This document shows positions 1-28,580 of a stretch of 38,020 bases of DNA, one piece after another. The position numbers and the translations under genes were made by a program. The notes beneath the pieces were generated by a model. It had not been told where the DNA came from, searched no databases, and saw nothing but the letters and a program-made list of their open reading frames with translations. This DNA is from Planctomycetota bacterium (GTDB lineage Bacteria > Planctomycetota > Brocadiia > Brocadiales > Brocadiaceae). Numbering within the stretch: the first letter of the stretch is position 1; every line of letters starts with the position of its first letter. The DNA lies in contig JAHFOY010000009.1 in the NCBI GenBank assembly GCA_023261485.1, forward strand, positions 1 to 38,020, written 5' to 3'.

Positions 1-30
1 AATTTTAGAAGATAAATTATGGAGGTAATG

Positions 31-789
31 ATGTTGAAAAGTTTACGATGCTTGGCAATTGCTGGCGGTTTGGCGCTCAGCGTTATGAGTGGTGTGGTGT
101 GTGTAAATAATCTCGCCGTGGCGCAGGAAAAAGGCGCTGCCTACAAAGAGATCGATGTGGCAGATGGAGGAACGATAGCAGGGACTGTAAAATATGATGG
201 TGATGTTCCCGTTCCAAAAATATTAAAGGTAGACAAGGATGAGCAGACCTGCGGTCATGAAAATAAGGCGTCAGAAGAGTTGGTGGTTAATGGAGAATCC
301 AAAGGTGTCAGAAATGTCGTGGTCTCTCTGGTTGACATTGCGGCGGGCAAGAAAGCTGAAGCGGTAACCGTTTCGTTGGATCAGAAAGAATGCCTGTTTA
401 GTCCCCACGTCCTTGCGATTCCGGTTGGGTCCAGTGTGGATTTGCTTAATAGCGATAATGTAATGCATAATCTTCACTCATGGTCTATCAAGAACCCTGC
501 TTTCAATGAAGGGGTGTCGGGCGGCGGGAAAATGACAAAGAAATTTGATCTTGCGGAGATAGTAAAGATTACCTGTGATGTGCATAAATGGATGAGTTCT
601 TTTATCGTGGTGAAGGCAAATCCGTATTTCGCAGTCACAAATGAGAATGGTCAGTTTAAGATTGAAAATGTACCTGCCGGAAAATATAAGATCGAGGCTT
701 GGCAAGAGAAGCTTGGGAAAAAGACCGGCGATGTAACCGTAAAGTCAAAAGAAGAGGTTGTGGTAGATTTTGTTTATGCGAAGAAATAA
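31..789 (+). CDS. Periplasmic cupredoxin with C-terminal carboxypeptidase-regulatory-like domain
   Basis: Predicted secreted blue-copper-type electron carrier of 252 residues. I chose the ATG at 31 because a GGAGG lies at 21-25; ATGs at 19 and 28 are too close to it or overlap it. A signal peptide covers about residues 1-32 and ends near AVAQ. The likely type-1 copper ligands are His146 (in MHNLH), then Cys182, His185 and Met188 in CDVHKWM. The last 50 residues form an Ig-like CarboxypepD_reg module (ENVPAGKYKIEAW). It is paralogous to the protein at 18049-18777, and the two bracket the NXR cluster. Inference: it shuttles electrons for nitrite oxidation. Copper binding is inferred from the motif only. 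Confidence 0.8.
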   Translation: MLKSLRCLAIAGGLALSVMSGVVCVNNLAVAQEKGAAYKEIDVADGGTIAGTVKYDGDVPVPKILKVDKDEQTCGHENKASEELVVNGESKGVRNVVVSLVDIAAGKKAEAVTVSLDQKECLFSPHVLAIPVGSSVDLLNSDNVMHNLHSWSIKNPAFNEGVSGGGKMTKKFDLAEIVKITCDVHKWMSSFIVVKANPYFAVTNENGQFKIENVPAGKYKIEAWQEKLGKKTGDVTVKSKEEVVVDFVYAKK

Positions 790-846: not shown

Positions 847-3000
847 ATGAATAATTTGAAGATATTGTTGCATCTCCCAAAGAGAAGTGGATATATTTTT
901 GTCGTATTGTTTTTCCTTTCCTTTTTTTCATTCCTTTCATTTTCGCAGGAAGTTTTTGCAGCCGATGCGCCAGTGGAAGCGGCAAAAGAAGCAGCGTCGC
1001 CAGGTATAGAATTACCCCAGTTTGAGGCTGGCCAGCCGCCTGCAACGGCAACACAAACTGCAGAAGGACAACCTGCGGCAGAGGCTGGAACGGCAACGGC
1101 GGCAGTGGAGGAAGAAGAGGTTGGCCCTGTCCAGTATCGGGCGTTTTTTGGGATAGATTCCCGTGTTATAGTCTGGATTGTATCGGAATTGCATCTCATG
1201 TTCGCCGCCTTTGTGCTGGGTGTTCCCATATTTGCTGTAATTGTTGAGATTGTAGGATTTAAGGGCGGGGATATTAAATATGATAAGATGGCTAAGGAAT
1301 TTACCAAGTTGTTGTCCGCCGCATTTGCTACGACAGCATCGCTGGGCGGATTGCTTGGATTCTGTCTGTACGGTTTGTATCCTGAATTCATGGGCCATAT
1401 GACGAATGTGTTTGCACCGACCATGTACGTTTATGCATTGATGTTCTTTGGCGAGGCATTCACTTTATACGGCTATTACTATTCGTGGGAAATTCTTAAG
1501 GGTACTGCCTTTAAGAAATGGTTCCACATTATGTTAGGTGTTATGCTGAATCTGTTCGGAACAGGGCTTATGTTCATCACCAATTCCTGGGCAACCTACA
1601 TGATGAGTCCTGCGGGTGTTGTTCCTGCAACAGGGAAGCTGCTTAGTTTGTCTCATGCCATATATAATCCGCTCTGGATGCCGGTAAATATCCATCGGTT
1701 GATTGCAAATGTGTGCTTTGGCGGTTTTGTGGTGGGCGCATATGCCGCGGTAAAATTTTTAGGTTCGAAATCGGAAGAGGAGAAGGCTCACTACGACTGG
1801 ATGGGTTATGTCGGAAACTTTATAGGAGTCGGAGCGCTGATCCCGTTGCCATTTGCCGGATATTGGCTTGGACGGGAAGTTTATAGTACCAGCCCTGTGA
1901 TGGGTAATATTATGATGGGTGGAGCATTCTCCTGGACGTTTATCATCCAGGCCATACTGATTGGTATGCTATTTATCGGTGTAAATTATTATCTGTGGCT
2001 TGGAATGGGTAGGATTAGAGGGTCAGAGCGATACACGAAATTTTTCAAATACCTCATTTTTGTAATCTTTATGTGTTTTGCAGTCTGGCTGACACCGCAT
2101 AATCTGCCGCTGAGCGGAGAAGAGCGGGCGATGATTGGTGAACAATATCACCCTTTCTCTAAATATTTTGGGGTTATGGCGGCGAAAAATGCCGTAGTCA
2201 ACTTGATAATTCTCGCTACATTCTTTTCCTTCTTGATTTATCGACGAAGCAATAAAGGAGAGATGGTGCCATTTTCCGAACAGGGGAAGGCCGGTAAGAT
2301 CGGTATATTTTCTGCCGTGATCTTCTGTTTGCTGATGTTGGTTTCGTATGCGATTTCGCTTAATTTTGTGGAATTAGAGGCGAACGTCAAGGTTTTTGTG
2401 AAACCGATTATTTGTGCGCTTTATATCCAGTCATTTGCGATATGTTTAGCTGCCTTCCTGACATTTAAGAATAAAGGAAAGTTGGGGCAGGCATTGCTGT
2501 TCGCAGTTACTGCGTGTATTGCAGTGCTTTATTTCTGGTATTACGGTTTCCAGGTTATGCAAAAGGCAAATCTGGTATTGAGATATTTGTCTGTGACGCA
2601 GGTCTCAATCGTGATGAGTTGCCTGATTATGAATGCCATTATAGATATTTTCATGTTCCGTAAGGCAAAGCTTGTGGGCGGCATCGAGTGGGGTAAAATG
2701 CCTGTGCGGTCTCAGTATGCGTTGCTTTTGTTGTGCGTGGTTATTGTAATTCTGATGGGATTAATGGGCTTCATACGCTCCGGTTTGAGGATGGATTGGC
2801 ATATTTATGGCATTTTGCAAGATACTTCACAAGGGGCGTACACGCCGTCCCTGGCATATATGGGCCGGATAGTAGGCTTGATTGTGGCGCTTTTCCTGGG
2901 GCTGGTGGCCTTTGTGTTTTGGCTGGCCGGTCTCGGCGACAAAAAAGAAAAGGCAAAAGAGCATGAATATGGTGAAGTTACTTCAAGCTATGAGGACTAG
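847..3000 (+). CDS. Cytochrome bd oxidase subunit I (CydA)-like multi-heme membrane protein
   Basis: Large integral membrane protein (717 residues; CydA is usually about 450-530). An N-terminal signal or anchor covers about residues 15-38, and an Ala/Pro/Glu-rich linker covers 40-95. The CydA-like core follows: His116 in SELHLMF matches the high-spin heme ligand, His283 in NIHRLIAN matches the second heme histidine, and Glu203 in FFGEAF matches E. coli Glu107. The partner Glu99 position is Val195. I see no GRGRQPW quinol-loop signature. About five extra C-terminal membrane segments extend the fold. No cydB lies nearby. CydA-like proteins also occur with NXR in Nitrospira, so a role moving electrons between nitrite oxidation and quinone or a terminal acceptor is plausible, but the reaction is not established here. 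Confidence 0.75.
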   Translation: MNNLKILLHLPKRSGYIFVVLFFLSFFSFLSFSQEVFAADAPVEAAKEAASPGIELPQFEAGQPPATATQTAEGQPAAEAGTATAAVEEEEVGPVQYRAFFGIDSRVIVWIVSELHLMFAAFVLGVPIFAVIVEIVGFKGGDIKYDKMAKEFTKLLSAAFATTASLGGLLGFCLYGLYPEFMGHMTNVFAPTMYVYALMFFGEAFTLYGYYYSWEILKGTAFKKWFHIMLGVMLNLFGTGLMFITNSWATYMMSPAGVVPATGKLLSLSHAIYNPLWMPVNIHRLIANVCFGGFVVGAYAAVKFLGSKSEEEKAHYDWMGYVGNFIGVGALIPLPFAGYWLGREVYSTSPVMGNIMMGGAFSWTFIIQAILIGMLFIGVNYYLWLGMGRIRGSERYTKFFKYLIFVIFMCFAVWLTPHNLPLSGEERAMIGEQYHPFSKYFGVMAAKNAVVNLIILATFFSFLIYRRSNKGEMVPFSEQGKAGKIGIFSAVIFCLLMLVSYAISLNFVELEANVKVFVKPIICALYIQSFAICLAAFLTFKNKGKLGQALLFAVTACIAVLYFWYYGFQVMQKANLVLRYLSVTQVSIVMSCLIMNAIIDIFMFRKAKLVGGIEWGKMPVRSQYALLLLCVVIVILMGLMGFIRSGLRMDWHIYGILQDTSQGAYTPSLAYMGRIVGLIVALFLGLVAFVFWLAGLGDKKEKAKEHEYGEVTSSYED

Positions 3001-3116: not shown

Positions 3117-4067
3117 ATGAATAAAAGCATGCTAAAAATTACGGCATTCGGAGTCGCAGTTATAGGATTCTATATCTATATCACAATGTATGTGGCCGGG
3201 CTTTCTGGTACGGGTGGAGGCGAGTCGGCTGGAGGGGTAAGTCCAGAGGCTGGTGAAAAGATATTTTGGGGTGACGGACAGTGCAGTACATGTCACAAGA
3301 TAGGTACGAGTGGTAGCGCTACGAGAGGTCCTGATCAGGATGGTTTGTCGGGTAGGGCAGAAGAACGGGCGAAAGAGTTAGGTATGCCTTCGGGTTTGGA
3401 TTATCTGGTAGAATCTATTGTAGAGCCTGAGAAATATATCGTTAAAGGGTATGATAAAATTATGCCTAAGGTGTTTGATCCCCCTATTATGTTGTCACGC
3501 GAAAAAATACTGGCAGTTTTGGCGTATTTACAAACGCTGGGCGGGGAGCCTGACATTGGTGCTATTATGAAGTATAAAGATAAAATACCTGAGGCGTCAA
3601 AGAAAAAGGTAAAACCGTGGGTGGCCCCTATGGTTGTTGATGCAAAAGAAGGTGAAAAGGTATTTTTTGATGAAACACGTCCTGTTACCTGCGGAAAATG
3701 TCACGTTGTGAATGGCAAAGGGAAGAAAGTAGGGCCAGAGCTTACTGGGATTGGTGCGATTCAGACTCCTGAATATTTTCTGGAATCTATCCTGAAGCCA
3801 AGCGCGAAGATCGTAAAAGGGTACGAAACGATGTATGTGATAACGACAGATGGAATACCTTACAATGGATTGATTAAGAGCGAGACTGAAGAAGAGATTG
3901 TTTTGTTAAAAGAAGAAAGCGGCGAGATCGAAGAGGTGACTATTGCTAAAAGCGAGATTCAGGAAATGAAAAAGCAGGATGTCTCTATTATGCCTGGGAA
4001 CATCGCTGAGATGTTAAGTGTAAGGGATTTTTACGGGATTGTATCCTTTTTACAAAGCTTGAAATAG
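3117..4067 (+). CDS. Membrane-anchored diheme c-type cytochrome
   Basis: 316 residues. An uncleaved N-terminal anchor (about 8-28) is followed by two cytochrome c domains with CSTCH at 56-60 and CGKCH at 192-196. The second half (180-316) matches the Planctomycete/Verrucomicrobia heme-binding family TIGR02603 in its layout: heme site, GPELTGIG, the stretch LESILKPSAKIVKGYE, a small beta domain (VITTDGIPYNGLI), then MPGNIAEML. The candidate axial Met is in KIMPKVF for heme 1 and SIMPGN for heme 2. It lies about 50 bases before the next cytochrome, in the same operon. Role inferred: periplasmic or anammoxosome-lumen electron transfer in the NXR pathway. Confidence 0.85.
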   Translation: MNKSMLKITAFGVAVIGFYIYITMYVAGLSGTGGGESAGGVSPEAGEKIFWGDGQCSTCHKIGTSGSATRGPDQDGLSGRAEERAKELGMPSGLDYLVESIVEPEKYIVKGYDKIMPKVFDPPIMLSREKILAVLAYLQTLGGEPDIGAIMKYKDKIPEASKKKVKPWVAPMVVDAKEGEKVFFDETRPVTCGKCHVVNGKGKKVGPELTGIGAIQTPEYFLESILKPSAKIVKGYETMYVITTDGIPYNGLIKSETEEEIVLLKEESGEIEEVTIAKSEIQEMKKQDVSIMPGNIAEMLSVRDFYGIVSFLQSLK

Positions 4068-4118: not shown

Positions 4119-4889
4119 ATGGCTAAAAAACGCAGTAAATTTTTAATGATTTGGGTGATCACTGCAGTTGTCTGCTTGTTTTTGTTCCTTAAATATGCTT
4201 CCCCGAAAATTTTTCAGGTGTTGATGGCGAAAGACCATACGATGCCTACGCCAAGTACCCTGATGATGTGGTATATGATTATGGGAGTTTTGGCAGGTTT
4301 GGTGTATGCGACAACCAGCAACCAGAAATTTGCTGATTTTCTGGGTTTTTTATTACCCGGTGGTGGGCCAATAATTAAAATATTACTACAAAAGATGTTA
4401 TTTGTAGGTTTTCCTGTATTAGTCGGATGGTTTGTGTATTCATGGTCTATTCCAGGCGCTGCGTCGCCTGTGGAGTTAAGGATTCAGCATCCAACCCTTC
4501 CTCAAGAGTTTGAAAAACGGGAGAATCCTTTCCGTCAAACTGACGCAGAAACACAACGGAAATGCATAGAAGAAGGGAAGATTCTTTTTCAAACATACTG
4601 TCGTCCCTGTCATGGTTCAAAAGCAGACGGTAACGGGCCATTTGCAAATTCGTTCCGTCTGAGACCGATTAATTTCCAGGATCCTGGGACGATTGCAACG
4701 GTGGTAGATAACTACCTCTTTTGGCGTATTAAAGAAGGCGGACCAGGCCTTCCTTCGGAATCGACCCCATGGGATTCTGCTATGCCGTCGTGGAAAGATG
4801 ATCTGAAGGATGATGAAATCTGGAAGATTATTATGGGTGAATACGACACTGCGGGTGTTATGCCTCGGCAAAGGGAAAAGCTTGAATGA
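4119..4889 (+). CDS. Membrane-bound monoheme cytochrome c
   Basis: 256 residues with three predicted membrane helices (about 9-27, 48-66 and 87-108) and a C-terminal class I cytochrome c domain. Heme attachment is at CRPCH 161-165, and the probable axial Met is Met222 in AMPSWKDDL. The middle segment (about 48-85, GFLLPGGG) resembles no catalytic domain I know. The gene sits between two other cytochromes in the same direction, so it is probably a membrane tether that collects electrons from soluble NXR partners. That role is inference. Confidence 0.82.
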   Translation: MAKKRSKFLMIWVITAVVCLFLFLKYASPKIFQVLMAKDHTMPTPSTLMMWYMIMGVLAGLVYATTSNQKFADFLGFLLPGGGPIIKILLQKMLFVGFPVLVGWFVYSWSIPGAASPVELRIQHPTLPQEFEKRENPFRQTDAETQRKCIEEGKILFQTYCRPCHGSKADGNGPFANSFRLRPINFQDPGTIATVVDNYLFWRIKEGGPGLPSESTPWDSAMPSWKDDLKDDEIWKIIMGEYDTAGVMPRQREKLE

Positions 4890-4981: not shown

Positions 4982-6559
4982 ATGATAAAAGCGTTTAAAA
5001 GAGTTTTGGTTGGTTTAGGACTGGTCGTAGTAACGACAAGTGTCTTTGTGGTGCGTTCGGAAGTGCCTGCTCATGCATCTCACTTGTTTAGAACTTACAA
5101 ACATGAGGTACCTCAAAAGTTATCTGAAACACCTGAAGCCGTTGCTGAAGGAAAAAAGGTTTACGAAAAAAGGTGTTGGTATTGTCATGGAATCGAAGGC
5201 GGTGGTGATGGTCCTGCATCGAAAACGATGTTTCCGAAACCCAGGAACTTTACGAGAAATGAGTATAAAGTTCGTTCCACAACATTTGGTTCTGTTCCTA
5301 CCGACGAAGATCTGTTTAGAATTATTACCAGCGGTATTGAAGGAACGGCTATGCCTTTCTGGAGTACGATTACTGAAACAGAACGCTGGCAGGTAATATA
5401 CTACGTGAAGACCTTTAATGAACAGTTTAAGAAAGATACTGCCCCAAAGGTTGTGTCCGTAGGGTCGGTCGCCTCGACTCCGGACAGTATAAAAAGAGGG
5501 CAAGAGCTATTTAAAGAGACGAAGTGTTATGAATGTCATGGTGAGGATGGCAGGGGAAACGGCCCGTTAACGGTAGCTTTGCAAACTGAATGGAATATGC
5601 CTTACAGGGCCAGGGATCTATCCAAGGCGTGGAATTTTAAAGGAGGTAATGCGATAGAAGATATTTATCGTACAATTTCTACCGGATTTAATGAGACGCC
5701 TATGGGGTCTTATTTAGAAAAACTTTCTGATGAAGACCGCTGGCATGTAGCTCATTTTGTAAAGAGTTTGTCGAAAGATATGGCATCTGACGTAGTTGTA
5801 AAGGTGAAGTTGCTTGAAGGCGATCAATTACCCTCGGAACCATTGGATGAGAACTGGGGGAAAGCCACACCGGTAGAGCTTCCATTAGGCGGGCAGATCC
5901 TTACAAGTCCCAGACATTGGGCGCCTGCAATTGATGCTGTTATGGTCAGGGCTGTGTACAACAAGGATGAAATTGCCTTTTTGGTTGAGTGGGATGATTC
6001 AACTAACAAACAAGAGGAGGTTTTCCGTGATGCCATGTCACTTCAATTTCCAACTAAAATTCCGGAATCGTTAAAGAAACCATATTTTGCAATGGGAGAT
6101 TCCAGCGGAGCAGTAAATCTGTGGAGTTGGAAGGCGCACTGGGGTGAAGGATTTGGCTCGGCTGCCGAAGCGCCCGAAACGGTGGTCGAGTTGAATGCGA
6201 AAGGATTTAAAAGCGTTGTACCGCAGCCACCTGAAAGCCAGAATGTGAGTGGGAAAGGGATTTACCAAAATGGAAGGTGGAAGGTAGTTATGAAGAGGCC
6301 TTTGAAGACTGAAGATGCAAAGGGAGATATTCAATTTGAAATTGGAAAGCTCATTCCTATTGCTTTTGCAGTCTGGGATGGTTCAAATAGCGATGTTGCC
6401 GGGCAAAAATCCGTGTCGTCGTGGTATTACATATCACTTGAAAAACCGGTACCTAAAACGGTTTTCGTCTATGTATTGATAGCAATTGTTATGGGTGCAA
6501 GTATAGAGATGTGGTTTGTTGCAAGATTACGCAGGTTTCCACCAAAATTAGAAGAATGA
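4982..6559 (+). CDS. Diheme cytochrome c fused to NxrC-like heme b domain, C-terminally anchored
   Basis: 525 residues in three parts. A signal sequence covers 1-32. Two cytochrome c domains follow, with CWYCH 65-69 (axial Met124 in TAMPFW) and CYECH 182-186 (axial Met241 in TPMGSY). Residues 270-485 resemble the gamma subunit of the type II DMSO-reductase family (ethylbenzene dehydrogenase gamma/NxrC). In that family heme b is held by Met and Lys; the matching residues here are Met371 in FAMGD and Lys476 in VAGQKSV, equivalent to Met156 and Lys307 of NxrC at 10441-11415. One membrane helix (491-512) anchors the C-terminus. The protein therefore looks like a three-heme wire (two c, one b) beside NXR. 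Heme b binding is inferred by alignment by eye. Confidence 0.85.
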   Translation: MIKAFKRVLVGLGLVVVTTSVFVVRSEVPAHASHLFRTYKHEVPQKLSETPEAVAEGKKVYEKRCWYCHGIEGGGDGPASKTMFPKPRNFTRNEYKVRSTTFGSVPTDEDLFRIITSGIEGTAMPFWSTITETERWQVIYYVKTFNEQFKKDTAPKVVSVGSVASTPDSIKRGQELFKETKCYECHGEDGRGNGPLTVALQTEWNMPYRARDLSKAWNFKGGNAIEDIYRTISTGFNETPMGSYLEKLSDEDRWHVAHFVKSLSKDMASDVVVKVKLLEGDQLPSEPLDENWGKATPVELPLGGQILTSPRHWAPAIDAVMVRAVYNKDEIAFLVEWDDSTNKQEEVFRDAMSLQFPTKIPESLKKPYFAMGDSSGAVNLWSWKAHWGEGFGSAAEAPETVVELNAKGFKSVVPQPPESQNVSGKGIYQNGRWKVVMKRPLKTEDAKGDIQFEIGKLIPIAFAVWDGSNSDVAGQKSVSSWYYISLEKPVPKTVFVYVLIAIVMGASIEMWFVARLRRFPPKLEE

Positions 6560-8088: not shown

Positions 8089-8660
8089 TGGGTTATTTTT
8101 CGACAGGTAAAAAAATTATAATTATAGGCTCATTTGTTTTATTAGGAGTCTTAGGTAGTATTGCTGCCGCAGAAGACCTTAGTTTTTCACCGCGCAACCA
8201 AGTATTTTTATTATCTCCCAAAAAGACTTTTGAGTATTATTGCTCTCCATGTCACGGGCAAAAGGGCAAAGGAGACGGAACGTTCTTTACGATAGATTTG
8301 AAGCCAAAGCCCAGAAATTTTCTTGATGTTGAATATATGAAGAAAAGGACTGACGACCAGTTGATAAAGTCCGTTACAGATGGATCTAAGTCAGTTGATA
8401 AATCTAATCTTTGTCCTCCATGGGGAAAAACACTTACAGAAAAAAGGATCAAAGAACTAGTTGCTTATATTCGCAGTCTTTCTATACGGGAAGCTGAAAA
8501 GACTGTGGTTGCCGCTAAAGAATCAGTTGTTGAAGTAAAAAAGCCCAGCGTACTTAAATCATCAGCACGTTGGTTATTTCTTATTGTAATTACCCTTGCT
8601 TTGGCAATTGGCGCTATTGGTGAGTGGAAAAAACTCAAAAAAGAGTCCTTGCCGCGGTAG
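8088..8660 (+). CDS. Monoheme cytochrome c with C-terminal membrane anchor
   Basis: 190 residues. The start overlaps the preceding stop by one base. A signal peptide covers about 8-28, one cytochrome c domain has CSPCH at 52-56, and a membrane helix covers about 160-178, followed by a basic tail. The usual axial-methionine motif MPxWG reads CPPWG here (Cys109), so either Cys or another residue must be the sixth ligand. It is the last cytochrome of the upstream block and precedes the universal stress protein by 25 bases. Confidence 0.83.
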   Translation: MGYFSTGKKIIIIGSFVLLGVLGSIAAAEDLSFSPRNQVFLLSPKKTFEYYCSPCHGQKGKGDGTFFTIDLKPKPRNFLDVEYMKKRTDDQLIKSVTDGSKSVDKSNLCPPWGKTLTEKRIKELVAYIRSLSIREAEKTVVAAKESVVEVKKPSVLKSSARWLFLIVITLALAIGAIGEWKKLKKESLPR

Positions 8661-8685
8661 AGAGCAACCAACACAAAATATCTTT

Positions 8686-10023
8686 ATGTACAAAAAGATA
8701 CTCATTGCAATTGACAATTCACGCCATTCTAATCACTGCATTGATTTAGGAATCGAACTCTCAAAAAAATTTAATTCCCACTTGGTGGGATGTCATGTCT
8801 ATGACGCATCGCTGCATCAAAGGCGGTTTCGTGACATGGAAAAAGGTTTGCCGCCTCAATACCAGGACGAAACCGAACTACAAAAGCAGCGAGACCTGCA
8901 TACTACCTTAATTAATCAGGGACTCAGATTAATTTCCGAGTCATATCTGGATGTATTTGATAAAAAGGGTAATGAAGCTGCCGTTCCGCATAAAGGTCTT
9001 CTGCTGGAAGGGAAGAATTATTACGAAATCATTAAGGAACTACAGAGAAATCATTACGACCTGTTGATTGTCGGGGCACAAGGGCTGGCTGCCGTGAATG
9101 ATAGCACTCTGGGAAGCGTTTGTGAACGGGTTGTCAGGCGGATTAAAACGGATGTCCTTGTAGTAAAAAATGGCAGTTTTGAGGGGAAAGCCGTTGTTGC
9201 AGTTGATGGAAGCGCACAGTCTGTCGCCGGTGTGAAGTCTGCTCTGTCGTTTGCCAAGTTGTTCGATCTGGAACTTGATTCTGTTTCTGTATTCGACCCG
9301 CATTATCATCGAGTTGCATTTGAGAGTATTGCAAAGGTGCTTTCGAAGGAGGCAGGGCAAATTTTCAGGTTTAAGGAACAGGAAAACCTCCACGAGGAGA
9401 TTATCGATAAGGGGCTGGCAAAAATATATCAGGGTCACTTGGATCAGGCTAATCTCATGGCAAAAGATGCTGGCGTGGAGATTAATTCTGTCTTAATGGA
9501 TGGTAAGCCTTATGATCAAATACTCAGGTTTGTTTCCAGAGAACAACCGTCCTTATTGATTGTGGGACGTACGGGAGTTCATAACACAAACGGGCTGGAT
9601 ATTGGCAGTACGACGGAAAATCTGCTGAGGTTATCACCGTGCAATGTATTGCTAACCGGGGGGAATATAGATGCTGAGCTTGGAACGACTACCGCTGGTT
9701 CGGAATTTCAAAGATCGTCATTAAGTAAAAAAGATACTGCATTTAACAGTCGCGGTCATTTGCATGATGAAAATGGAATCGAAGGGTTTATTGAGAGCGT
9801 TCATTCGGTTCACGAAAAACCTACCATAAAAGTACATAATCCTGTAGTCTGGACGCAAGAAGCCCAAATACAAACAGAACGCATTCCTTCATTCATTAGA
9901 AGCATGATTAGGATAAAAATAGAGAAGTATGCCCAAGAAAACGGTTATAATGAGATAACGACCAAGATTGTTGATGAAGCAAAAAGCAAGCTCATGAACG
10001 ATACCTCCTTCCACAAAATTTGA
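8686..10023 (+). CDS. Tandem universal stress protein with C-terminal PCP_red-like domain
   Basis: 445 residues, start at the ATG at 8686 (first residues MYKKILIA, a typical UspA opening). Two UspA folds are present, about 1-162 and 167-326. Each has the nucleotide-binding pattern G-x2-G-x9-G-S/T: GAQG...TLGS (130-144) and GRTG...IGST (294-309). Residues 387-436 (WTQEAQIQTERIPSFIR, then KYAQENG and EITTKIVDEAK) match the PCP_red family (small C-terminal module of protochlorophyllide reductase B-like subunits, also found in redox proteins). Placement between cytochromes and nxrC suggests a regulatory or accessory role in NXR expression or assembly. No function can be assigned from sequence. 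Confidence 0.85.
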   Translation: MYKKILIAIDNSRHSNHCIDLGIELSKKFNSHLVGCHVYDASLHQRRFRDMEKGLPPQYQDETELQKQRDLHTTLINQGLRLISESYLDVFDKKGNEAAVPHKGLLLEGKNYYEIIKELQRNHYDLLIVGAQGLAAVNDSTLGSVCERVVRRIKTDVLVVKNGSFEGKAVVAVDGSAQSVAGVKSALSFAKLFDLELDSVSVFDPHYHRVAFESIAKVLSKEAGQIFRFKEQENLHEEIIDKGLAKIYQGHLDQANLMAKDAGVEINSVLMDGKPYDQILRFVSREQPSLLIVGRTGVHNTNGLDIGSTTENLLRLSPCNVLLTGGNIDAELGTTTAGSEFQRSSLSKKDTAFNSRGHLHDENGIEGFIESVHSVHEKPTIKVHNPVVWTQEAQIQTERIPSFIRSMIRIKIEKYAQENGYNEITTKIVDEAKSKLMNDTSFHKI

Positions 10024-10054: not shown

Positions 10055-10440
10055 TGTTAGGTTTGTTGTATTCTAACTGTGGCGTTGTGATTTGAATTCT
10101 TTTCCAATAAAATTTGGTGATGTTGGTTGCTACTGATGATATTTTTTAGATATCTCAATGGATTTGATGCTGTTTCCGAGTTGCACGGTGTATTTCAATA
10201 AAGAAATGTCGTATTGGATTCCACAATAAAGTTCAGTATCTCTTAATTTTCATAGTATAGTGAAAATAAAGAACTAAGGTATATGTTTTGTTTAGTAAAC
10301 GATATTTTGTAATGAGGAACGAAATTTGCCCCTTGTTGTATTATGTGAATTATTGTTGTTCAAAATTTGAGATAAATGATTCTTAAAAAATTTAATTGAC
10401 TTTATTAACAGGGCAGGAGTTTTTTAAAGGAGGGGAGTAT
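10055..10440 (+). promoter_or_regulatory. Long AT-rich leader upstream of nxrC, no gene
   Basis: The 417-base gap between the stress-protein gene and nxrC contains no credible coding frame. If the promoter at 10020 is used, nxrC has an untranslated leader of about 385 bases. Visible elements are an operator-like imperfect palindrome at 10247-10266 (TTTTCA, 8 bases, TGAAAA) and a short near-palindrome GTTTAGTAAAC around 10289-10299. A strong ribosome-binding site AAAGGAGGGG lies just before the ATG. I recognise no known riboswitch class. Confidence 0.5.
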
Positions 10441-11415
10441 ATGAATAAAGGGTTTTCGTTGTTTAAAGTATTTGGTTTGCCCCTGCTTGGGGCAGTTTTT
10501 CTTAGCGCAACGCTGTTTGCGGCTGAGGAAGCACCGCCGGGGGTCAAAGGTGCGGGTGAAGAAGAATTTATCCCTGCAAAAGAAGTATTGACTGTGAAGT
10601 ATGTCCAGGTGGAGAAACCTTACCACATGGATGTTGAATCGTTAAAGGGCGCTTTTAAAGATGCAAATCCTGTAAAAATTACGTTACAAAAGCAGGACAA
10701 GGCATTTCCTAATGGCGGGGGATCTGTGGCCGGTGCAGAAGTAAAGGCGATACATGATGGTGTTACGATTTATTTCCAGATTAGCTGGAGTGATCCGACG
10801 AGGAATGCAAGGTCAATTGCCGTTCAGGAATTCAGGGATGCTGTGGCTTTGATGTTTCCACTGGGTGCAGTAGAGATAACTCCTGCAGAACATTTTAGTC
10901 CAAGGATGGGGGATAGGGAAAAACCAACAAACCTGTGGCATTGGAAAGCAGATTGGGAGGCGGATTTGCTTGCTAAAGGCGAATTAGAAGATGTAGAGGT
11001 GCAATACCCTAATATGCACGATGATTTCAATTTCAATCCTTATAGTGCTTACTACCACAGAGAATTGATAACGAGTGTGGAAGTGTTGTCGGGAGGAAGG
11101 GCCGCCAATAACCTCCTTTCTCAGCCAGGGCGTGGCAGGACAGTTGAGGATTTGAATGCGGAAGGATTTGGCACGCTTACTACACAGGACCACCAGGATG
11201 TGAATGGATGCAGTCATTATGAGGATGGTGTGTGGACGGTAATTATGTATCGGTCGTTAATTACACAGGATCCGCACGATATACAGTTTGTTCCGGGCGG
11301 GAAAGCATTTTTCAATATGGCTGTGTGGAATGGTGGGGAGCAGGATAGGAATGGCCAAAAGAACATCTCTACTCAATGGCATCCTGCAGTGCTTGAAACG
11401 GTTGCCTGGCAATAG
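10441..11415 (+). CDS. nxrC: Nitrite oxidoreductase gamma subunit NxrC
   Basis: 324 residues. The ATG at 10441 is fixed by the ribosome-binding site just upstream and by a clear signal peptide (about 1-28, LSATLFAAEE). The protein belongs to the heme b-binding gamma-subunit family of type II DMSO-reductase enzymes (EbdC, DdhC, ClrC). Candidate heme b ligands are Met156 in RMGDREK and Lys307 in NGQKNIS. No CXXCH is present. In anammox NXR this subunit passes electrons from the FeS chain of NxrB to outside carriers. It heads the operon, 40 bases before nxrB. Related to the C-terminal half of the protein at 4982-6559. Confidence 0.93.
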   Translation: MNKGFSLFKVFGLPLLGAVFLSATLFAAEEAPPGVKGAGEEEFIPAKEVLTVKYVQVEKPYHMDVESLKGAFKDANPVKITLQKQDKAFPNGGGSVAGAEVKAIHDGVTIYFQISWSDPTRNARSIAVQEFRDAVALMFPLGAVEITPAEHFSPRMGDREKPTNLWHWKADWEADLLAKGELEDVEVQYPNMHDDFNFNPYSAYYHRELITSVEVLSGGRAANNLLSQPGRGRTVEDLNAEGFGTLTTQDHQDVNGCSHYEDGVWTVIMYRSLITQDPHDIQFVPGGKAFFNMAVWNGGEQDRNGQKNISTQWHPAVLETVAWQ

Positions 11416-11455
11416 TAGACTCTTTAAGGATAAAGGAATTTAGGAGGATAAAAAA

Positions 11456-12667
11456 ATGACATTAGTACATAACTGGCACTTAGGGAGACGCATGGAGTAT
11501 CCCTATTTTGAATCCAGGCCTAAGCGACAATTTGCGGCTGTATTTAATATCAACAGATGTATTGCCTGCCAGACTTGTACCATGGCTTGTAAGAGCGCAT
11601 GGACATATAATAAGGGACAGGAGTATATGTGGTGGAACAATGTGGAGACAAAACCCTATGGTGGGTTTCCGCAATCATGGGATGTTAAAACGTTAAAGTT
11701 GATTGATAATGGCGAGAATACCTGGTACACGGACGAAAAGGATGAAAAACTTTCCCCGTATGGAGTCTATGAGGGTGATACGATATTTGAGGCGGCTTCT
11801 AAGAAGAACCTTAATCAATGGGCAGTCGGTTATATACCAGAAGATAAGGAGTGGAGGTCTCCGAATTTTGGAGAAGATGTTGCAAAGAGTAATAAGCCGG
11901 ATGAACACTCATCACTGCCTGAGCACAGTCGGTGGTTCTTTTATATCCAGAGGCTTTGTAATCATTGCACCTATCCAGGTTGCCTGGCGGCCTGCCCGAG
12001 AAAAGCTATATACAAGAGAAAAGAAGATGGTATTGTTCTTATTGATCAAAAAAGGTGCAGAGGCTACAGAAAATGCGTGGAGCAATGCCCTTATAAAAAA
12101 CCTATGTTCAGGGGACTAACTAGGGTAAGCGAAAAATGTATTGCCTGTTATCCCAGGATTGAAGGGAAGGATCCTCTGACGAAAGGTCGTCCTATGGAAA
12201 CCAGATGTATGGCTGCCTGCGTAGGTCAAATTCGTTTACAGGGGTTCCTGGATGATAATCCGAAGAATCCGGTTACCTGGCTGATTAAGCATGACAAGCT
12301 GGCGTTGCCGCTTTATCCGCAGTTTGGGACAGAACCAAACATTTATTACATTCCTCCAAGATGGGCTCCAAGGTCTTATTTAAGGCAGATGTTCGGCCCG
12401 GGAGTTGACGAAGCAATTGAGAAATTTATGGTGCCTTCCCGTGAAAGACTGGCGGTTTTGTCGTTGTTCAGGATGGCGCAATCCATTATATTTGAATATA
12501 AGATAGAGGAAGGCCCGAAGGTTTTCGAGACGATGATTCACGGAAAGAAGTTTGAGATGTTTAATGATACCGTTATCGGATATGGCGAGGATGGACAGGA
12601 AATTTTGAGAACTACTATAGAAGAGCCTGTCCATATCAGAGATCCGAAGCATTACAATTCAATTTAG
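11456..12667 (+). CDS. nxrB: Nitrite oxidoreductase beta subunit NxrB (iron-sulfur)
   Basis: 403 residues, preceded by AGGAGG eight bases before the ATG. It is an NarH-like electron-transfer subunit without a signal peptide, so it is probably exported with NxrA by the Tat route. Cysteine groups: 35/38/41/45 (CIACQTCTMAC), 168/171/176/180 (CNHCTYPGCLAAC), 201/207/211 (CRGYRKCVEQC) and 228/231/251/255 (CIACY, then CMAAC). In the third group Tyr204 replaces a cysteine, as Trp does in NarH, so this group should hold [3Fe-4S]; the other three should hold [4Fe-4S]. It relays electrons from the FeS cluster of NxrA to the heme of NxrC. Confidence 0.95.
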   Translation: MTLVHNWHLGRRMEYPYFESRPKRQFAAVFNINRCIACQTCTMACKSAWTYNKGQEYMWWNNVETKPYGGFPQSWDVKTLKLIDNGENTWYTDEKDEKLSPYGVYEGDTIFEAASKKNLNQWAVGYIPEDKEWRSPNFGEDVAKSNKPDEHSSLPEHSRWFFYIQRLCNHCTYPGCLAACPRKAIYKRKEDGIVLIDQKRCRGYRKCVEQCPYKKPMFRGLTRVSEKCIACYPRIEGKDPLTKGRPMETRCMAACVGQIRLQGFLDDNPKNPVTWLIKHDKLALPLYPQFGTEPNIYYIPPRWAPRSYLRQMFGPGVDEAIEKFMVPSRERLAVLSLFRMAQSIIFEYKIEEGPKVFETMIHGKKFEMFNDTVIGYGEDGQEILRTTIEEPVHIRDPKHYNSI

Positions 12668-12681
12668 AATTGAGGTTTGTT

Positions 12682-13476
12682 ATGGGCGTTGAAAGTGCTG
12701 GTTTTTCAGATCAACAAGTTGCATCCACCGCAGCGAATCTGCTTACACGGAGCGTGATGTACCAAATTTTGTCCGCTTGCTTTCTTTATCCCGAAGAGAA
12801 AAACCTTTCGATACTGAAAAGCTCAGATTTTCAGGAACACACGAAGGATTTGATGTTGTGTTATGCGGATATTGATGATGGTGCAGCGGTGCAAAGCTGC
12901 TTGAATGAAGTACGGGAATTGTACGGAAATGCCAACCCGGAAGATTTGCAAAAGATATATTCGCGTATTGTAGGACACACCATGTCTAAAGAGTGTCCTT
13001 TGTATGAGACCCAATTTGGTGCAGCCCACGTGTATCAGCAAGTTCATGAGTTGGGGGATATTCAGGGTTTTTACAAGGCTTTTGGTCTGGATCTCTCTGA
13101 GATAGAAAAAGAACGCTGCGACCATATCAGCGTAGAGTTGGAATTTATGCACTTTTTGTTGTACAAGCAAGCATACGCCCTGGAAAACCACGGAGATGAA
13201 AAGGCGCAGATATGTTTGGAGGCGCAAAAGAAATTTTTGAAAGAGCATATAGGGAAATGGATGCCTCTTTTTGCGGTACTTTTTGGCAGGAAGGCAGGAG
13301 AAGGTTTTTATTGTGCATTATCTGCCCTGACAAAGGAGTTTTTAAGGCTGGAAATGAAGTTGCTGGATATTAAAACCGAGCTTTACAAGGAGTCTGATCT
13401 GAATCAGGAAGCGGTTGCAGGCGTCTCCGATGAATGTTTATCCTGCGCTTCTTCTGAAGATTTCAATGAGGAATAG
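12682..13476 (+). CDS. TorD/NarJ-type molybdoenzyme maturation chaperone
   Basis: 264 residues, all-helical and cytoplasmic. I prefer the ATG at 12682, which follows TTGAGG at 12670-12675; a TTG at 12670 is the alternative. The family signature is seen as MYQILSACFLYPEE near the N-terminus, then CPLYETQFG, DHISVELEFMHFL and FLKEHIGKWMPLF. Members bind the Tat signal of a molybdoenzyme and hold it until cofactor is inserted. Lying between nxrB and nxrA, its client is almost certainly NxrA. The last 20 residues contain a CLSC motif of unknown meaning. Confidence 0.88.
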   Translation: MGVESAGFSDQQVASTAANLLTRSVMYQILSACFLYPEEKNLSILKSSDFQEHTKDLMLCYADIDDGAAVQSCLNEVRELYGNANPEDLQKIYSRIVGHTMSKECPLYETQFGAAHVYQQVHELGDIQGFYKAFGLDLSEIEKERCDHISVELEFMHFLLYKQAYALENHGDEKAQICLEAQKKFLKEHIGKWMPLFAVLFGRKAGEGFYCALSALTKEFLRLEMKLLDIKTELYKESDLNQEAVAGVSDECLSCASSEDFNEE

Positions 13477-13478
13477 AT

Positions 13479-14432
13479 ATGAGACTCGAATTTGACCCAA
13501 GTTTGATTGAAGAAGTAATATTTGGAGAATTAAAGGCCAGGGAGGCCAAGGGGGATTTTGCTTTCACCCTGGAATATCATTCCTGCATTGATCCGGTTTA
13601 CGAAAATTTTCCGTTAGAGGAGAGACCTTCACAGTTTAAAAAAATAGAATGGGATTTTTTCAAAAAGCTGGAATTTCCAAAGGCAATAAAAGATATCTTT
13701 GATGAATTTCCTGAGTTTGAAGTAAAATCCGGCGGGGGGGTGATCGCAAGGGCGGTGAATCCTAACGACGAGGGTGCTTATCTAACAAAAGGGATGAACC
13801 AGGATGAAGGGAAAAAAAGGATTGTCGTTAAATTGCTTTCGGACCGCTTTCAGGATATTTCTTATCTGGGAAAGCTTGTCAGGCATGAACTAACCCATGC
13901 TTCTGACATGCTCAGCGAATTATACGGCTATCGTGACGAACGGCTCGGCGGTAATCCTATGGAGGAGTGTATTGTAAAAGAGCGCTATTGCACCTTCTGG
14001 GATATTTTTGTTGACAGCAGACTGATCAGGAATGGGAAAGAGACTATATCTGACAGGGAGGGAAGATACAGAGAGTTTGAAGCGCTTTATAGAAAATTTC
14101 CTGACGATGTAAAAAGTACCATTTTCGACACCCTATGGAAGGATGAAAGTCTTACTCATGATAGGATACTAAGTCTGGCAAGGGATGTAAACGAGGTAAT
14201 AAAGATTTCTGAAGGATTACCTGTTATGCATGCCGTCAAGAAAAAAAGGCCAATTTTGCCGGGTGTCCAGTGTCCTCTCTGTCAATTTCGTACTTATCGT
14301 TGGGCAGAAAATATTGAACAAGATGCTTACCTTGTGGGTGCAATTAAAAAGGATTTTCCCAACTGGGAACCGGAAGATGGCGTATGTGGGCAATGTACAG
14401 AGGCCTATAAGGTAAGAAGTACTGTTTGTTAA
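13479..14432 (+). CDS. HExxH metalloprotease-like protein with C-terminal zinc ribbon
   Basis: 317 residues, starting two bases after the chaperone stop. No signal peptide. A zinc-metallopeptidase motif HELTH lies at 136-140 (RHELTHASDM), and a possible third ligand is in the FWDIFVDSRL stretch at about 173-182. The C-terminus carries two CXXC pairs, CPLC 265-268 and CGQC 303-306, which suggest a structural zinc site. I do not recognise a named family. Its position between the chaperone and nxrA, in an operon otherwise devoted to NXR, suggests a part in NXR assembly, for example processing or quality control of a subunit. That is inference; the HExxH may also be purely structural. Confidence 0.75.
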   Translation: MRLEFDPSLIEEVIFGELKAREAKGDFAFTLEYHSCIDPVYENFPLEERPSQFKKIEWDFFKKLEFPKAIKDIFDEFPEFEVKSGGGVIARAVNPNDEGAYLTKGMNQDEGKKRIVVKLLSDRFQDISYLGKLVRHELTHASDMLSELYGYRDERLGGNPMEECIVKERYCTFWDIFVDSRLIRNGKETISDREGRYREFEALYRKFPDDVKSTIFDTLWKDESLTHDRILSLARDVNEVIKISEGLPVMHAVKKKRPILPGVQCPLCQFRTYRWAENIEQDAYLVGAIKKDFPNWEPEDGVCGQCTEAYKVRSTVC

Positions 14433-14490
14433 TATATAGAGATAAAGCTTTTTATATACATTGTTTTTAATTGAGAAAGGAGTAGGAAAT

Positions 14491-17400
14491 ATGAAACTTA
14501 CCAGGAGAACTTTCCTACAAATAGCAGGTGCGACAGGCGCTACATTTACCATTGCAAATAAGGCAATGGCATTTCGGTTACTGAAGCCTGCTGTGGAGGT
14601 AGGAAATCCGTTGGATGCTTATCCTGATCGTGCATGGGAAAGTGTATATCGTGACCAGTACAGGTATGACAGAACATTCACCTTTACTTGTTCACCGAAT
14701 GATACCCATGCCTGTAGGGTGAGGGCATTTGTAAGAAATGAAGTGGTTATGAGAGTCGAGCAGAATTATGACCACCAGAATTACTCAGACCTGTATGGGA
14801 ACAAGGCCACCAGGAACTGGAATCCCAGGATGTGCTTAAAAGGGTACACGTTCCACCGCAGGGTCTACGGTCCGTATAGATTGAGATATCCGCTTATTCG
14901 AAAAGGATGGAAACAGTGGGCGGATGACGGATTCCCGGAATTGACGCCGGCAAATAAATCCAAATACCTGTTTGATGCCAGAGGACAAGATGAATTATTA
15001 AAGGCATCTTGGGATGATGCGTGGACATACGCTGCAAAAGGGATTTTGCATATTACTAAGAAGTACAGCGGCGAAGAAGGCGCTAAAAAACTTATAGAAC
15101 AGGGATATCCAAAAGAGATGGTTGATCCCATGAAGGGGGCTGGCACGCGTACCTTCAAGGGTCGTGGTGGTATGGGTCTCTTGGGTGTCATCGGAAAATA
15201 TGGGATGTACAGGTTTAATAATATGCTCTCATTGGTTGACAGTCATAACAGGGGCGTAGGCGCTGATAAGGCACTCGGCGGAAGGAATTGGTCTAACTAC
15301 ACATGGCATGGCGATCAGGCGCCAGGACATTCTTTCTCTCATGGTTTGCAGGCCTCAGACGTTGATATGAATGATATTCGTTTCTCAAAGCTGGTAATCC
15401 AAACAGGGAAAAACCTTATCGAAAACAAGATGCCTGAGGCTCACTGGCTTACCCAGGTTATGGAGAGGGGCGGAAAGCTGGTTGTTATTACACCGGAATA
15501 CAGTCCGTCCGCACAAAAGGCTGATTATTGGATACCGATAAAGTGTAATACCGATACAGCGTTGTTTCTTGGTCTAACGAAGATATTGATGGATGAGAAG
15601 CTTTATGATGCAGATTATGTGAAAAAGTTTACCGATTTCCCATTGCTCGTCAGAACAGATACCCTGAAAAGACTGAGTCCGCTGGACATCATACCTGGCT
15701 ATAAATTGGAAGATATTTCACATGGCGCAAGTTATAAGATTCATGGTCTGCATGATGATCAGAGGGAGATAGTTGGGGATTTTGTGGTATGGGACGCAAA
15801 GACAAATGGTCCGAAACCAATCACGAGGGATGATGTTGGTGATAAACTGGTCGCCAAAGGGATTGACCCTGTACTCGATGGCAAATTTAAGGTTAAAACT
15901 GTTGATGGTAAAGAGATTGAGGTCATGCCACTCTTTGAGATGTATAAGATACACCTGAAAGATTATGACATAGACACCGTGGTAGAAATAACCAATTCTC
16001 CAAAAGAGTTAATTGAAAGGCTGGCGCACGATATTGCGACCATAAAACCAGTGGCGATTCACTATGGCGAAGGCATTAATCATTGGTTTCATGCTACATT
16101 AATGAACAGGTCAACTTACCTGCCATTGATGCTGACAGGGAATGTAGGCTATATGGGTTCCGGTTCACATACCTGGGCAGGCAATTACAAAGCAGGCAAT
16201 TTCCAGTCAGCAAAATGGTGTGGCCCTGGATTTTATGGATGGGTGGCAGAGGACGTATTTAATCCAAACCTTGATCCAAACGCACCCGCGATGGATTTGA
16301 AGGTGAAAGGTCGCGCTTACGATGAAGAAGTTGCATACTGGAACCACAACGACAGGCCGTTAATTGTGAATACGCCAAAGTATGGGCGTAAATGTTTTAC
16401 GGGCAAGACTCACATGCCGACTCCGACAAAGATCATGTGGTTTACCAATGTAAACCTCGTTAATAATGCAAAGCATGTGTATCAGATGCTGAAGAATGTG
16501 AACCCCAATATTGAGCAGATTATGTCTACTGATATTGAAATGACGGGTTCTATCGAGTATGCAGATTTTGCATTCCCTGCGAATAGCTGGATGGAGTTTG
16601 AGACCCACGAGATTACGAGTTCATGCTCGAACCCGTTCTTCCAGATTTGGAAGGGCGGCATAAGACCGGTGAATGACTCCAAGGATGATGTGATGGTTCT
16701 TGCTGGCATGGCGGCTAAACTGGGTGAATTACTCAGGGATATGAGATTCAGGGACTTCTGGAAATTTGCTTTGGAGGGAAGACCGGAAGTTTATATCCAG
16801 AGGTTATTAGATGGCAGTACGACTTCCAAGGGTTATACTTTTGATGATATTATAGCTGGTAAATATGGTGAACCAGGCGTGGCCTTGCTAAATTTCAGGA
16901 CGTATCCAAGGCAACCCTTCTGGGAACAAGTACATGAAAGTATTCCGTTCTATACTCCAACAGGGAGACTGCAGGCCTACAATGATGAACCAGAGGTCAT
17001 TGAGTATGGTGAGAATTTCATTGTTCACCGTGAAGGTCCTGAAGCAACAAAGTACTTGCCAAACGTAATTGTAAGCACTAATCCCTATATTCGTCCGGAT
17101 GATTATGGTGTGCCGGAAAATGCGGAACACTGGGACGAGAGAACGGTAAGGAATATCAAGAAATCATGGGAAGAGACAAAGAAAACAAAGAACTTCCTGT
17201 GGGAGAAAGGGTATCAGTTCTTTTGTGTGACGCCGAAATCAAGACACACGGTACATTCTCAGTGGGCTGTGACTGACTGGAACTTTATCTGGAATAACAA
17301 CTTTGGCGACCCGTACAGGATGGACAAGAGGATGCCCGGTGTTGGTGAGCATCAAATCAATATAAACCCGCAGGCAGCGAAAGACTTGGGTATTAATGAT

Positions 17401-17940
17401 GGCGATTATGTTTACGTTGATGCTAACCCAGCCGACAGACCATACGAGGGGTGGAAGCCAAGCGATCCTTTCTATAAAGTTTCAAGGCTTATGCTCAGGG
17501 CAAAATATAACTCATCCTATCCTTACGGCGTAACGATGATTAAGCATTCTTCATGGATAGCAACGGAAAGGTCGGTAAAGGCGCACGAGACAAGGCCGGA
17601 CGGCAGGGCATTGTCCGCTGGTACCGGCTATCAGTCCAGTTTCCGTTATGGTTCTCAGCAAAGCCTTACCAGAGACTGGTCGATGCCCATGCACCAGCTT
17701 GATAGTCTGTTCCATAAAGCCAAGATTGGTATGAAGTTTATTTTTGGCTTTGAGGCGGATAACCACGGTATCAATACGGTTCCCAAGGAGACATTAGTCA
17801 AGATTACTAAGGCGGAGGATGGCGGTATTGGTGGAAAAGGCGTGTGGGATCCGGTAAAGACAGGTTACACTACAGGTAACGAGAATGACTTCATGAAGAA
17901 GTACCTTAACGGTGAACTGATAAAAGTAGAAAAGGCATAA
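14491..17940 (+). CDS. nxrA: Nitrite oxidoreductase alpha subunit NxrA (molybdopterin catalytic subunit)
   Basis: 1149 residues, ATG at 14491 after AAAGGAG. A Tat signal is at the N-terminus (TRRTFLQIAG). It is a type II DMSO-reductase-family Mo-bis-MGD enzyme that oxidises nitrite to nitrate in anammox. FeS-cluster ligands appear as C67-x3-D71-x3-C75 and C115; the Asp replaces a Cys. Asp275 in WHGDQAPG aligns with the molybdenum-binding Asp of NarG. Later segments (VVITPEYSPSAQKADYW, GNVGYMGSG, FAFPANSW) are typical MGD-binding parts, and the C-terminal domain carries INPQAAKDLGINDGDYV. Length and operon order fit anammox NxrA. The tubule-associated nxrT is not in this window. Confidence 0.95.
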   Translation: MKLTRRTFLQIAGATGATFTIANKAMAFRLLKPAVEVGNPLDAYPDRAWESVYRDQYRYDRTFTFTCSPNDTHACRVRAFVRNEVVMRVEQNYDHQNYSDLYGNKATRNWNPRMCLKGYTFHRRVYGPYRLRYPLIRKGWKQWADDGFPELTPANKSKYLFDARGQDELLKASWDDAWTYAAKGILHITKKYSGEEGAKKLIEQGYPKEMVDPMKGAGTRTFKGRGGMGLLGVIGKYGMYRFNNMLSLVDSHNRGVGADKALGGRNWSNYTWHGDQAPGHSFSHGLQASDVDMNDIRFSKLVIQTGKNLIENKMPEAHWLTQVMERGGKLVVITPEYSPSAQKADYWIPIKCNTDTALFLGLTKILMDEKLYDADYVKKFTDFPLLVRTDTLKRLSPLDIIPGYKLEDISHGASYKIHGLHDDQREIVGDFVVWDAKTNGPKPITRDDVGDKLVAKGIDPVLDGKFKVKTVDGKEIEVMPLFEMYKIHLKDYDIDTVVEITNSPKELIERLAHDIATIKPVAIHYGEGINHWFHATLMNRSTYLPLMLTGNVGYMGSGSHTWAGNYKAGNFQSAKWCGPGFYGWVAEDVFNPNLDPNAPAMDLKVKGRAYDEEVAYWNHNDRPLIVNTPKYGRKCFTGKTHMPTPTKIMWFTNVNLVNNAKHVYQMLKNVNPNIEQIMSTDIEMTGSIEYADFAFPANSWMEFETHEITSSCSNPFFQIWKGGIRPVNDSKDDVMVLAGMAAKLGELLRDMRFRDFWKFALEGRPEVYIQRLLDGSTTSKGYTFDDIIAGKYGEPGVALLNFRTYPRQPFWEQVHESIPFYTPTGRLQAYNDEPEVIEYGENFIVHREGPEATKYLPNVIVSTNPYIRPDDYGVPENAEHWDERTVRNIKKSWEETKKTKNFLWEKGYQFFCVTPKSRHTVHSQWAVTDWNFIWNNNFGDPYRMDKRMPGVGEHQININPQAAKDLGINDGDYVYVDANPADRPYEGWKPSDPFYKVSRLMLRAKYNSSYPYGVTMIKHSSWIATERSVKAHETRPDGRALSAGTGYQSSFRYGSQQSLTRDWSMPMHQLDSLFHKAKIGMKFIFGFEADNHGINTVPKETLVKITKAEDGGIGGKGVWDPVKTGYTTGNENDFMKKYLNGELIKVEKA

Positions 17941-25423: not shown

Positions 25424-25765
25424 ATGATTATATTATTCAAGACATCCAAACTTGAAAAATTGTGTAATGATGAAAAACTTATGATAAAAAGATATGGCCC
25501 ACTAAGGTGCAAATTGCTCAAGAGACGACTAAATGAACTTGGGGCCGCAAATGTATTAGAAGATATAAGAAAGCTTCCCCAGACTCGTTGCCATGAGCTA
25601 CTTCACAACCGTAAAGGGCAGCTTTCGGTGGATTTAGATCATCCCTATCGGCTTATTTTTGAACCTGCAAATAACCCAGTACCCAGGAAACCTGATGGTG
25701 AACTTGATTGGACAAAAGTAACCGAAATTACCATTATTGGCGTGGAGGATACCCATGATCAGTGA
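25424..25765 (+). CDS. higB: HigB-type toxin (RelE superfamily mRNA interferase)
   Basis: 113 residues with the compact beta-alpha RelE/ParE-type fold of plasmid-maintenance killer proteins. Typical stretches are KLEKLC near the start, CHELLHNRKGQLSVDLDHPYRLIFEP in the core, and WTKVTEITIIGVEDTH at the end. Such toxins cleave mRNA on the ribosome. No ribosome-binding site precedes the ATG. Its last 11 bases overlap the antitoxin gene, the toxin-first order usual for higBA. Confidence 0.85.
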   Translation: MIILFKTSKLEKLCNDEKLMIKRYGPLRCKLLKRRLNELGAANVLEDIRKLPQTRCHELLHNRKGQLSVDLDHPYRLIFEPANNPVPRKPDGELDWTKVTEITIIGVEDTHDQ

Positions 25766-26846: not shown

Positions 26847-26865
26847 GGATAAAGCAAGAAAAGCT

Positions 26866-28560: not shown

Positions 28561-28580
28561 CTTGAAAAACATTGATAATC

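Follow-up and report, generated by a model that had tools for sequence, protein, structure and literature searches.

The window, i.e. the whole stretch of 38,020 nucleotides analysed here, belongs to a Brocadiaceae assembly of 2.79 Mb that is 84% complete, from an order that carries hydrazine synthase (HZS). Its nxrA is 85-97% identical to the nxrA of other Brocadiaceae, and the same gene order was found in Brocadia, Jettenia, Kuenenia and Loosdrechtia records. The genes and regions considered below are the following:

19..789, + strand: secreted carboxypeptidase-regulatory/cupredoxin-like protein, directly upstream of the module in 37/49 cases
847..3000, + strand: bd-like (CydA-related) membrane protein, 717 aa, with a signal helix and about 15 membrane helices
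847..1128, + strand: its signal/anchor helix (aa 12-38) and a linker rich in Ala, Glu and Pro (aa 39-94), predicted on the outer (lumen) side
1159..1899, + strand: its CydA-homologous core, aa 105-351, Pfam PF01654 (Cyt_bd_oxida_I), E 8.6e-21
2008..2997, + strand: its C-terminal helical half, aa 388-717
3117..4067, + strand: partner 1, diheme cytochrome c with an N-terminal anchor and CXXCH motifs at aa 56 and 192
4119..4889, + strand: partner 2, monoheme cytochrome c anchored in the membrane, with CXXCH at aa 161
4982..6559, + strand: partner 3, NxrC-like ("alternative NxrC"), with two heme-c motifs, a heme-b EB_dh domain and a C-terminal membrane helix
6511..8088, + strand: tetraheme cytochrome c that follows the module in the Brocadiaceae cluster
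10396-11415, + strand: nxrC, EB_dh domain (start of the NXR block, 10396..17940)
11456-12667, + strand: nxrB, NCBIfam type II DMSO reductase beta
12670-13476, + strand: TorD-like chaperone, NCBIfam type II DMSO reductase chaperone
13479-14432, + strand: unknown gene in the NXR block
14461-17940, + strand: nxrA, NCBIfam type II DMSO reductase alpha

Note that the NXR cluster also contains, at 8596-10023, a gene whose product combines two universal-stress domains with a C-terminal PCP_red domain and which is conserved with the cluster in Brocadiaceae. Further along, positions 25424-29299 hold genes for a HigB-like toxin and an HTH/IrrE-type peptidase, in this order (an apparent toxin-antitoxin pair), with a DUF5615 protein after them; this is a defence/TA-like stretch of the ordinary kind.

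The original prediction that the open reading frame at 847-3000 (+) encodes a CydA-like protein was confirmed by Pfam, PDB and Foldseek evidence. The 717-aa product scored 74 bits against Cyt_bd_oxida_I at aa 105-351 (cut-off 26), its PDB sequence matches were to bd-oxidase subunit I only, with Geobacillus and mycobacterial CydA as the best ones, and its AlphaFold2 model (60 homologs as input; pLDDT 79.9, pTM 0.81) returned only CydA chains in Foldseek at E<=1e-3. With this CydA-type core and the conserved equivalents of His19 and His186, the protein belongs to subunit I of the cytochrome bd superfamily (PF01654). The Ala/Pro/Glu-rich N-terminal linker noticed previously was also evident: aa 39-94 comprise 16 Ala, 10 Glu and 7 Pro among 56 residues and are predicted to be disordered (pLDDT<50), and the signal helix/linker region is hardly conserved (mean column conservation 0.22, versus 0.71 for aa 96-480). 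The several extra C-terminal helices are likewise present; this half belongs to no accepted Pfam family and resembles no PDB fold at E<=1e-3, its model when predicted alone being of modest quality (pLDDT 73). That it could represent a fused CydB was rejected, as no Pfam family scored above its cut-off and no PDB match was obtained at the same threshold.

The bd-like protein had been labelled an orphan, a label that has to be abandoned: three fixed partner genes follow it. The order bd-like, diheme c, monoheme c, NxrC-like, which is that of the NXR-associated bd-like module, was observed in 54 of the 59 homologs whose loci extend 5 kb or more downstream. Among the five exceptions, most retain the partners, whose gene models are then split or overlap; one of them (L057) is without the monoheme c, and in another (L097) the NxrC-like gene lies about 8 kb downstream. 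The heme motifs were also maintained, with two CXXCH in 95/95 diheme c homologs, one in 95/96 monoheme c homologs and two in 85/88 NxrC-like homologs. We consider it very likely that the four-gene module is a fixed unit. The block occurs in Brocadiaceae, Scalinduaceae, Anammoxibacteraceae, Nitrospinota, Nitrospirota, KSB1 and the Alpha-, Beta- and Gammaproteobacteria, and the bd-like protein was present in 52/62 genomes of the order. Note that four loci from Scalinduaceae and Anammoxibacteraceae (L117, L118, L122, L123) carry a longer bd-like paralog of 844-880 aa with an NxrC-like neighbour; a monoheme c accompanies it in 3/4 of them, with no recognised diheme c gene.

The absence of a visible cydB was also borne out, and on a wider scale: none was detected in the window, in its own assembly (84% complete) or in the 33 Brocadiaceae genomes (PF02322, 0/33), and none in the Scalinduaceae genomes searched. 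CydB was present in one Anammoxibacteraceae genome and in one genome of the anammox family f3. No second CydA-like gene was found in the own genome, at the completeness given above; it contains one PF01654 match only, as do the single-contig genomes G015, G029, G032 and G034. The complete genomes of the Brocadia/Jettenia group (G015, G017, G029, G034) gave weak COX1 matches only. A heme-copper oxidase in the own genome was considered and rejected, one COX1 match being an NnrS/DUF1858-type membrane protein flanked by two DUF1858 domains (L194:1071-2846) and the second a short ORF of 129 aa. Other anammox genomes show weak COX1 matches of similar length to L194, which might be misread as a terminal oxidase. 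Among the complete Brocadia-group genomes checked, no respiratory-type oxygen-reductase candidate other than the bd-like protein was found.

Individual residues were compared on an alignment that combined 118 homologs and E. coli CydA, and the positions of interest are listed here:

1192..1194, + strand: His116, equivalent to E. coli His19 (heme d ligand), 117/118 homologs
1432..1434, + strand: Tyr196, at the position of E. coli Glu99 / Geobacillus Glu101, 118/118 homologs
1453..1455, + strand: Glu203, equivalent to E. coli Glu107, 117/118 homologs
1693..1695, + strand: His283, equivalent to E. coli His186 (heme b558 ligand), 118/118 homologs
1789..1791, + strand: His315, family-specific, start of predicted helix 6, 116/118 homologs
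2098..2100, + strand: His418, family-specific, predicted lumen-side loop, 118/118 homologs
2149..2151, + strand: His435, family-specific, predicted lumen-side loop, 118/118 homologs
2800..2802, + strand: His652, family-specific, predicted lumen-side end of helix 14, 118/118 homologs

In E. coli CydA, heme b558 is held by His186 and Met393, heme b595 by Glu445 and heme d by His19, with Glu99 nearby (PMC6853902, PMC8585947; the role of His19 in PMC8585947). The two heme-ligand histidines that the original prediction regarded as kept are His116 and His283, and its proton-path glutamate, Glu203, is indeed the counterpart of Glu107. Arg648 corresponds to Arg448. The pairing of Glu99 with Val195 was incorrect: Geobacillus Glu101 pairs with Tyr196 in a gapless alignment, and the misassignment arose because counting back from Glu107 skipped Leu101, a one-residue insertion in helix 3 of E. 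coli CydA that is missing in Geobacillus (PMC6853902). The 118-homolog alignment revealed no counterparts of Met393, Trp441 and Glu445 in the bd-like protein, nor of the Q-loop residues Lys252 and Glu257, in agreement with the quinol-loop signature having been reported as missing, and the protein is likely to have no CydA-type quinone site. Conversely, His315, His418, His435 and His652 have no equivalents in E. coli CydA. Strictly invariant polar residues across several phyla are Tyr196, Glu203, Arg284, Gln368, Lys447, Arg644, Arg648 and Asp659, and a wider alignment including relatives from Nitrospinota-class genomes kept the residue pattern except in a few rows. Two short divergent bd-like proteins of 505-514 aa (L161:820-2337 and L162:820-2364) retain Tyr196 and have lost histidines 315, 418 and 435. 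In canonical CydA the N-terminus lies outside. Assuming this topology together with the signal helix, the predicted helices would place His418, His435, His652, His283 and His116 on the lumen side.

These comparisons decide against a canonical cytochrome bd quinol oxidase whose CydB is encoded elsewhere. The CydA fold is what such an enzyme would have; however, CydB was found in 0/33 Brocadiaceae, and the Q-loop residues, Glu99 and the ligands Met393 and Glu445 of a quinol oxidase (qOR) all lack equivalents. Incomplete assemblies apart, the sequence refutes this reading, and we attach practically no weight to it.

The relationship between the module and NXR differs among lineages. In Brocadiaceae the module lies 13-17 kb from nxrA in 20/20 genomes with both on one contig, an adjacency specific to this family. 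In Anammoxibacteraceae and Scalinduaceae, NxrA and the module were on different contigs in 13/13 genomes with both, the assemblies being fragmented. There, a split cytochrome b and an octaheme c directly precede the module (L061, L062, L114, L126; the octaheme c alone in L053), in what resembles a complex-III-then-sink arrangement. Family f3, which we infer to be Candidatus Bathyanammoxibiaceae (PMC9723696) from traits including HZS and NXR, encodes NxrA in 7/9 genomes (55-59% identical) and hydrazine synthase in 6/9, and the bd-like protein in 0/9, even by a sensitive profile at E<=10. In its NXR cluster, a membrane-type diheme/heme-b NxrC-like gene stands directly before nxrA-nxrB-torD, and a split cytochrome b and an octaheme c follow the NXR genes where the contig is long enough. 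The f3 NXR loci without the bd-like protein are L173-L180, from genomes G005, G006, G007, G008, G010 and G011. Outside anammox, NxrA was absent from 20/22 module-bearing genomes, and a strong COX1 match was present in 20/22. Since 20 of these 22 genomes have no NxrA and the nine f3 genomes have no module, module and NXR are separable; with co-occurrence failing in both directions, an obligatory role of the module in NXR was rejected. Note that these differences in distribution reflect few evolutionary events, and no significance is claimed for them.

A different partner was found in Proteobacteria. At 25 proteobacterial loci an IdrAB-like P1-P2-B-A operon stands ahead of the module; it encodes a pair of MauG-like diheme peroxidases, a Rieske subunit and a molybdenum subunit above the arsenite-oxidase cut-offs, the same set as the gene content described for iodate-reductase clusters (PMC8692401). 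In these loci (L083:937-22019 and 24 more; examples are L067, L069-L072, L075-L079, L084-L093, L096 and L100-L105) the operon also includes a HEAT-repeat-like protein and is followed by the module, usually two in tandem. Two blocks near each other, holding two bd-like genes, were seen in 28/79 loci; in the proteobacterial ones the copies fall in two different clades, the window protein belonging to the first-copy clade. In the literature searched, bd-like proteins were nowhere connected with idr-type clusters.

Taking these results together, we tentatively favour, at somewhat less than an even chance, the reading that the module is a cytochrome-c-facing electron outlet to O2, possibly NO, rather than a quinone reductase. 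The bd-like protein would form the membrane part of a conserved cytochrome module of four proteins, from the quinol-site-less ("OR-N") bd branch. The four proteins would form one complex, whose c- and b-type hemes, together with the lumen-side histidines, would pass electrons to and from the pool of soluble cytochrome c used by NXR and, in other bacteria, by other periplasmic molybdoenzymes. Electrons would arrive at a high-spin heme site near His116/Tyr196/Glu203, which most likely would reduce O2, possibly NO, so that the module would act as a cytochrome-c-driven electron outlet and oxidant scavenger. We prefer this outlet because of the OR-N features, the conserved His116 and Glu203, and the lack of any other respiratory-type candidate in the complete Brocadia-group genomes. 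The fixed gene order, the shared residue pattern, the CydA fold, the missing Q-loop and CydB, the complex-III-then-sink arrangement, the separability from NXR and the treatment of OR-N proteins in the literature are also in its favour. The data favour a cytochrome-c-facing module able to work together with NXR or other molybdoenzymes, or placed behind a cytochrome b complex.

Several observations count against an O2 outlet. The literature consulted reports neither a purified member nor O2 reduction by one; CydAA', the proposed OR-N enzyme, needs two different CydA-like subunits and Brocadiaceae have one; and a protein that has lost the counterparts of Glu99 and Glu445 might no longer support O2 chemistry. 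As a rule, canonical bd oxidases tolerate azide rather well. In Scalindua, nitrite-dependent and chlorate-sensitive O2 consumption has been described, azide lowering the uptake from about 10 to 0.49 nmol/min/mg, and this uptake was credited to cbb3 (PMC13253579). That sensitivity argues against the module as the main oxidase there. The original view that O2 reduction is an unlikely main task in an anaerobe is nevertheless not safe, since Scalindua does consume O2. In addition, an iodate reductase as the proteobacterial partner would consume electrons, and a quinol:cytochrome c role fits equally.

The main competitor, rather unlikely in our judgement, is reverse electron transport, in which electrons from nitrite, delivered via NXR, would be pushed uphill into the quinone pool by membrane energy, with the module as an unusual complex III. 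This was proposed in 2013 (PMC3578206) and repeated by Mundinger et al. 2019 (PMC6606698), the latter also describing the equivalent Nitrospira cluster as highly transcribed. The strict proximity to nxrA in Brocadiaceae and the NxrC-like partner in the module are in its favour, and a quinol:cytochrome c role would suit both kinds of partner, the described idr clusters being without a dedicated quinone oxidoreductase (PMC8692401) and the module following the IdrAB-like operon. A new quinone site in the extra helices is possible. However, the CydA quinol-site residues are missing; f3 has HZS and NXR without the module, its NXR having a cytochrome b/octaheme complex as neighbour; the module of Scalinduaceae and Anammoxibacteraceae comes together with a complex of this kind, so that a second quinone enzyme would be redundant; NXR adjacency is confined to Brocadiaceae, most other module-bearing genomes lacking NxrA; and Nitrospira models give the step to complex III (PMC12324825). 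The data thus argue against the module as the sole nitrite-to-quinone route. For the cytochrome c-to-quinone connection proposed originally, the module partners support the link to c-type cytochromes, and reverse electron flow, a legitimate idea, is weakened by the lost quinol site, f3 and the NxrA-less genomes. Less probable still is a non-catalytic heme wire or membrane dock, which would anchor NXR-like periplasmic molybdoenzymes and relay electrons among cytochromes. The C-terminal membrane helix of the NxrC-like subunit and the occurrence of one module type beside two unrelated molybdoenzymes would suit it, but strict invariance of polar residues over several phyla exceeds the needs of an anchor, and outside Brocadiaceae NXR is mostly unlinked to the module. 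Finally, we regard as very improbable a plug-in redox enzyme of the membrane whose catalysis would be of a new type, distinct from both quinone and oxygen reductases, with Tyr196 in place of the glutamate ligand; coupled to NXR or to IdrAB/AioAB-like enzymes, it could in Brocadiaceae carry out a nitrogen-oxide reaction, e.g. forming or removing NO with NXR electrons.

The role of this highly conserved protein in anammox bacteria and nitrite oxidisers has been debated since 2010-2013. The comparison makes it testable, by defining a four-protein module, Tyr196 with its accompanying histidines, and an anammox family without the module; the Proteobacteria, in which two copies in tandem lie next to an iodate-reductase-like enzyme, could prove more tractable. 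If the module were an O2/NO outlet, models of oxygen tolerance and electron flow would change for major producers of Earth's N2 and nitrate.

Compared with known systems, the window protein shares with canonical CydA (E. coli; Geobacillus 5doq) the fold and the His19, His186, Glu107 and Arg448 equivalents; it differs in having Tyr for Glu99, in the lost Met393, Glu445, Trp441 and Q-loop equivalents, in the extra C-terminal helices and histidines, and in the absence of CydB. CydAA', with two paralogous CydA subunits, is resembled by the proteobacterial relatives with two paralogs in tandem modules, whereas Brocadiaceae have a single paralog. Murali, Gennis and Hemp reportedly defined in 2021 an OR-N family of the cytochrome bd superfamily, with subgroups N1-N5. 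Like the window protein, this family has a CydA core without the quinol site, and these features would place the bd-like protein in the OR-N branch; its residue pattern is common to relatives from Nitrospinota-class genomes, a group reported with OR-N1/OR-N2. OR-N proteins of Nitrospira and Nitrospinota have been treated as cytochrome-c-linked O2 reductases (PMC10839748, PMC12342949, PMC12324825). The closest system is the "bd-like oxidase" of NXR clusters, described by Lücker et al. 2013 (PMC3578206) in Kuenenia, Nitrospina and Nitrospira with the Q-loop missing. As judged from the available text of the accounts (Lücker 2010/2013, Mundinger 2019; bd-like_3 with alt_NxrC_2), the window protein is of the same type, with no difference found, and has in common with it about 14 helices, N-terminal heme ligands, the lack of a Q-loop, and a neighbourhood of two c-type cytochromes plus an alternative NxrC. 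Thus the protein type was already described, and what our comparison adds to the available text of those accounts is the fixed partner block and its wider distribution, Tyr196 with the extra histidines, the lost quinol-site, Met393 and Glu445 positions, the absence from f3, the NxrA-less genomes and the pairing with an iodate-reductase-like enzyme.
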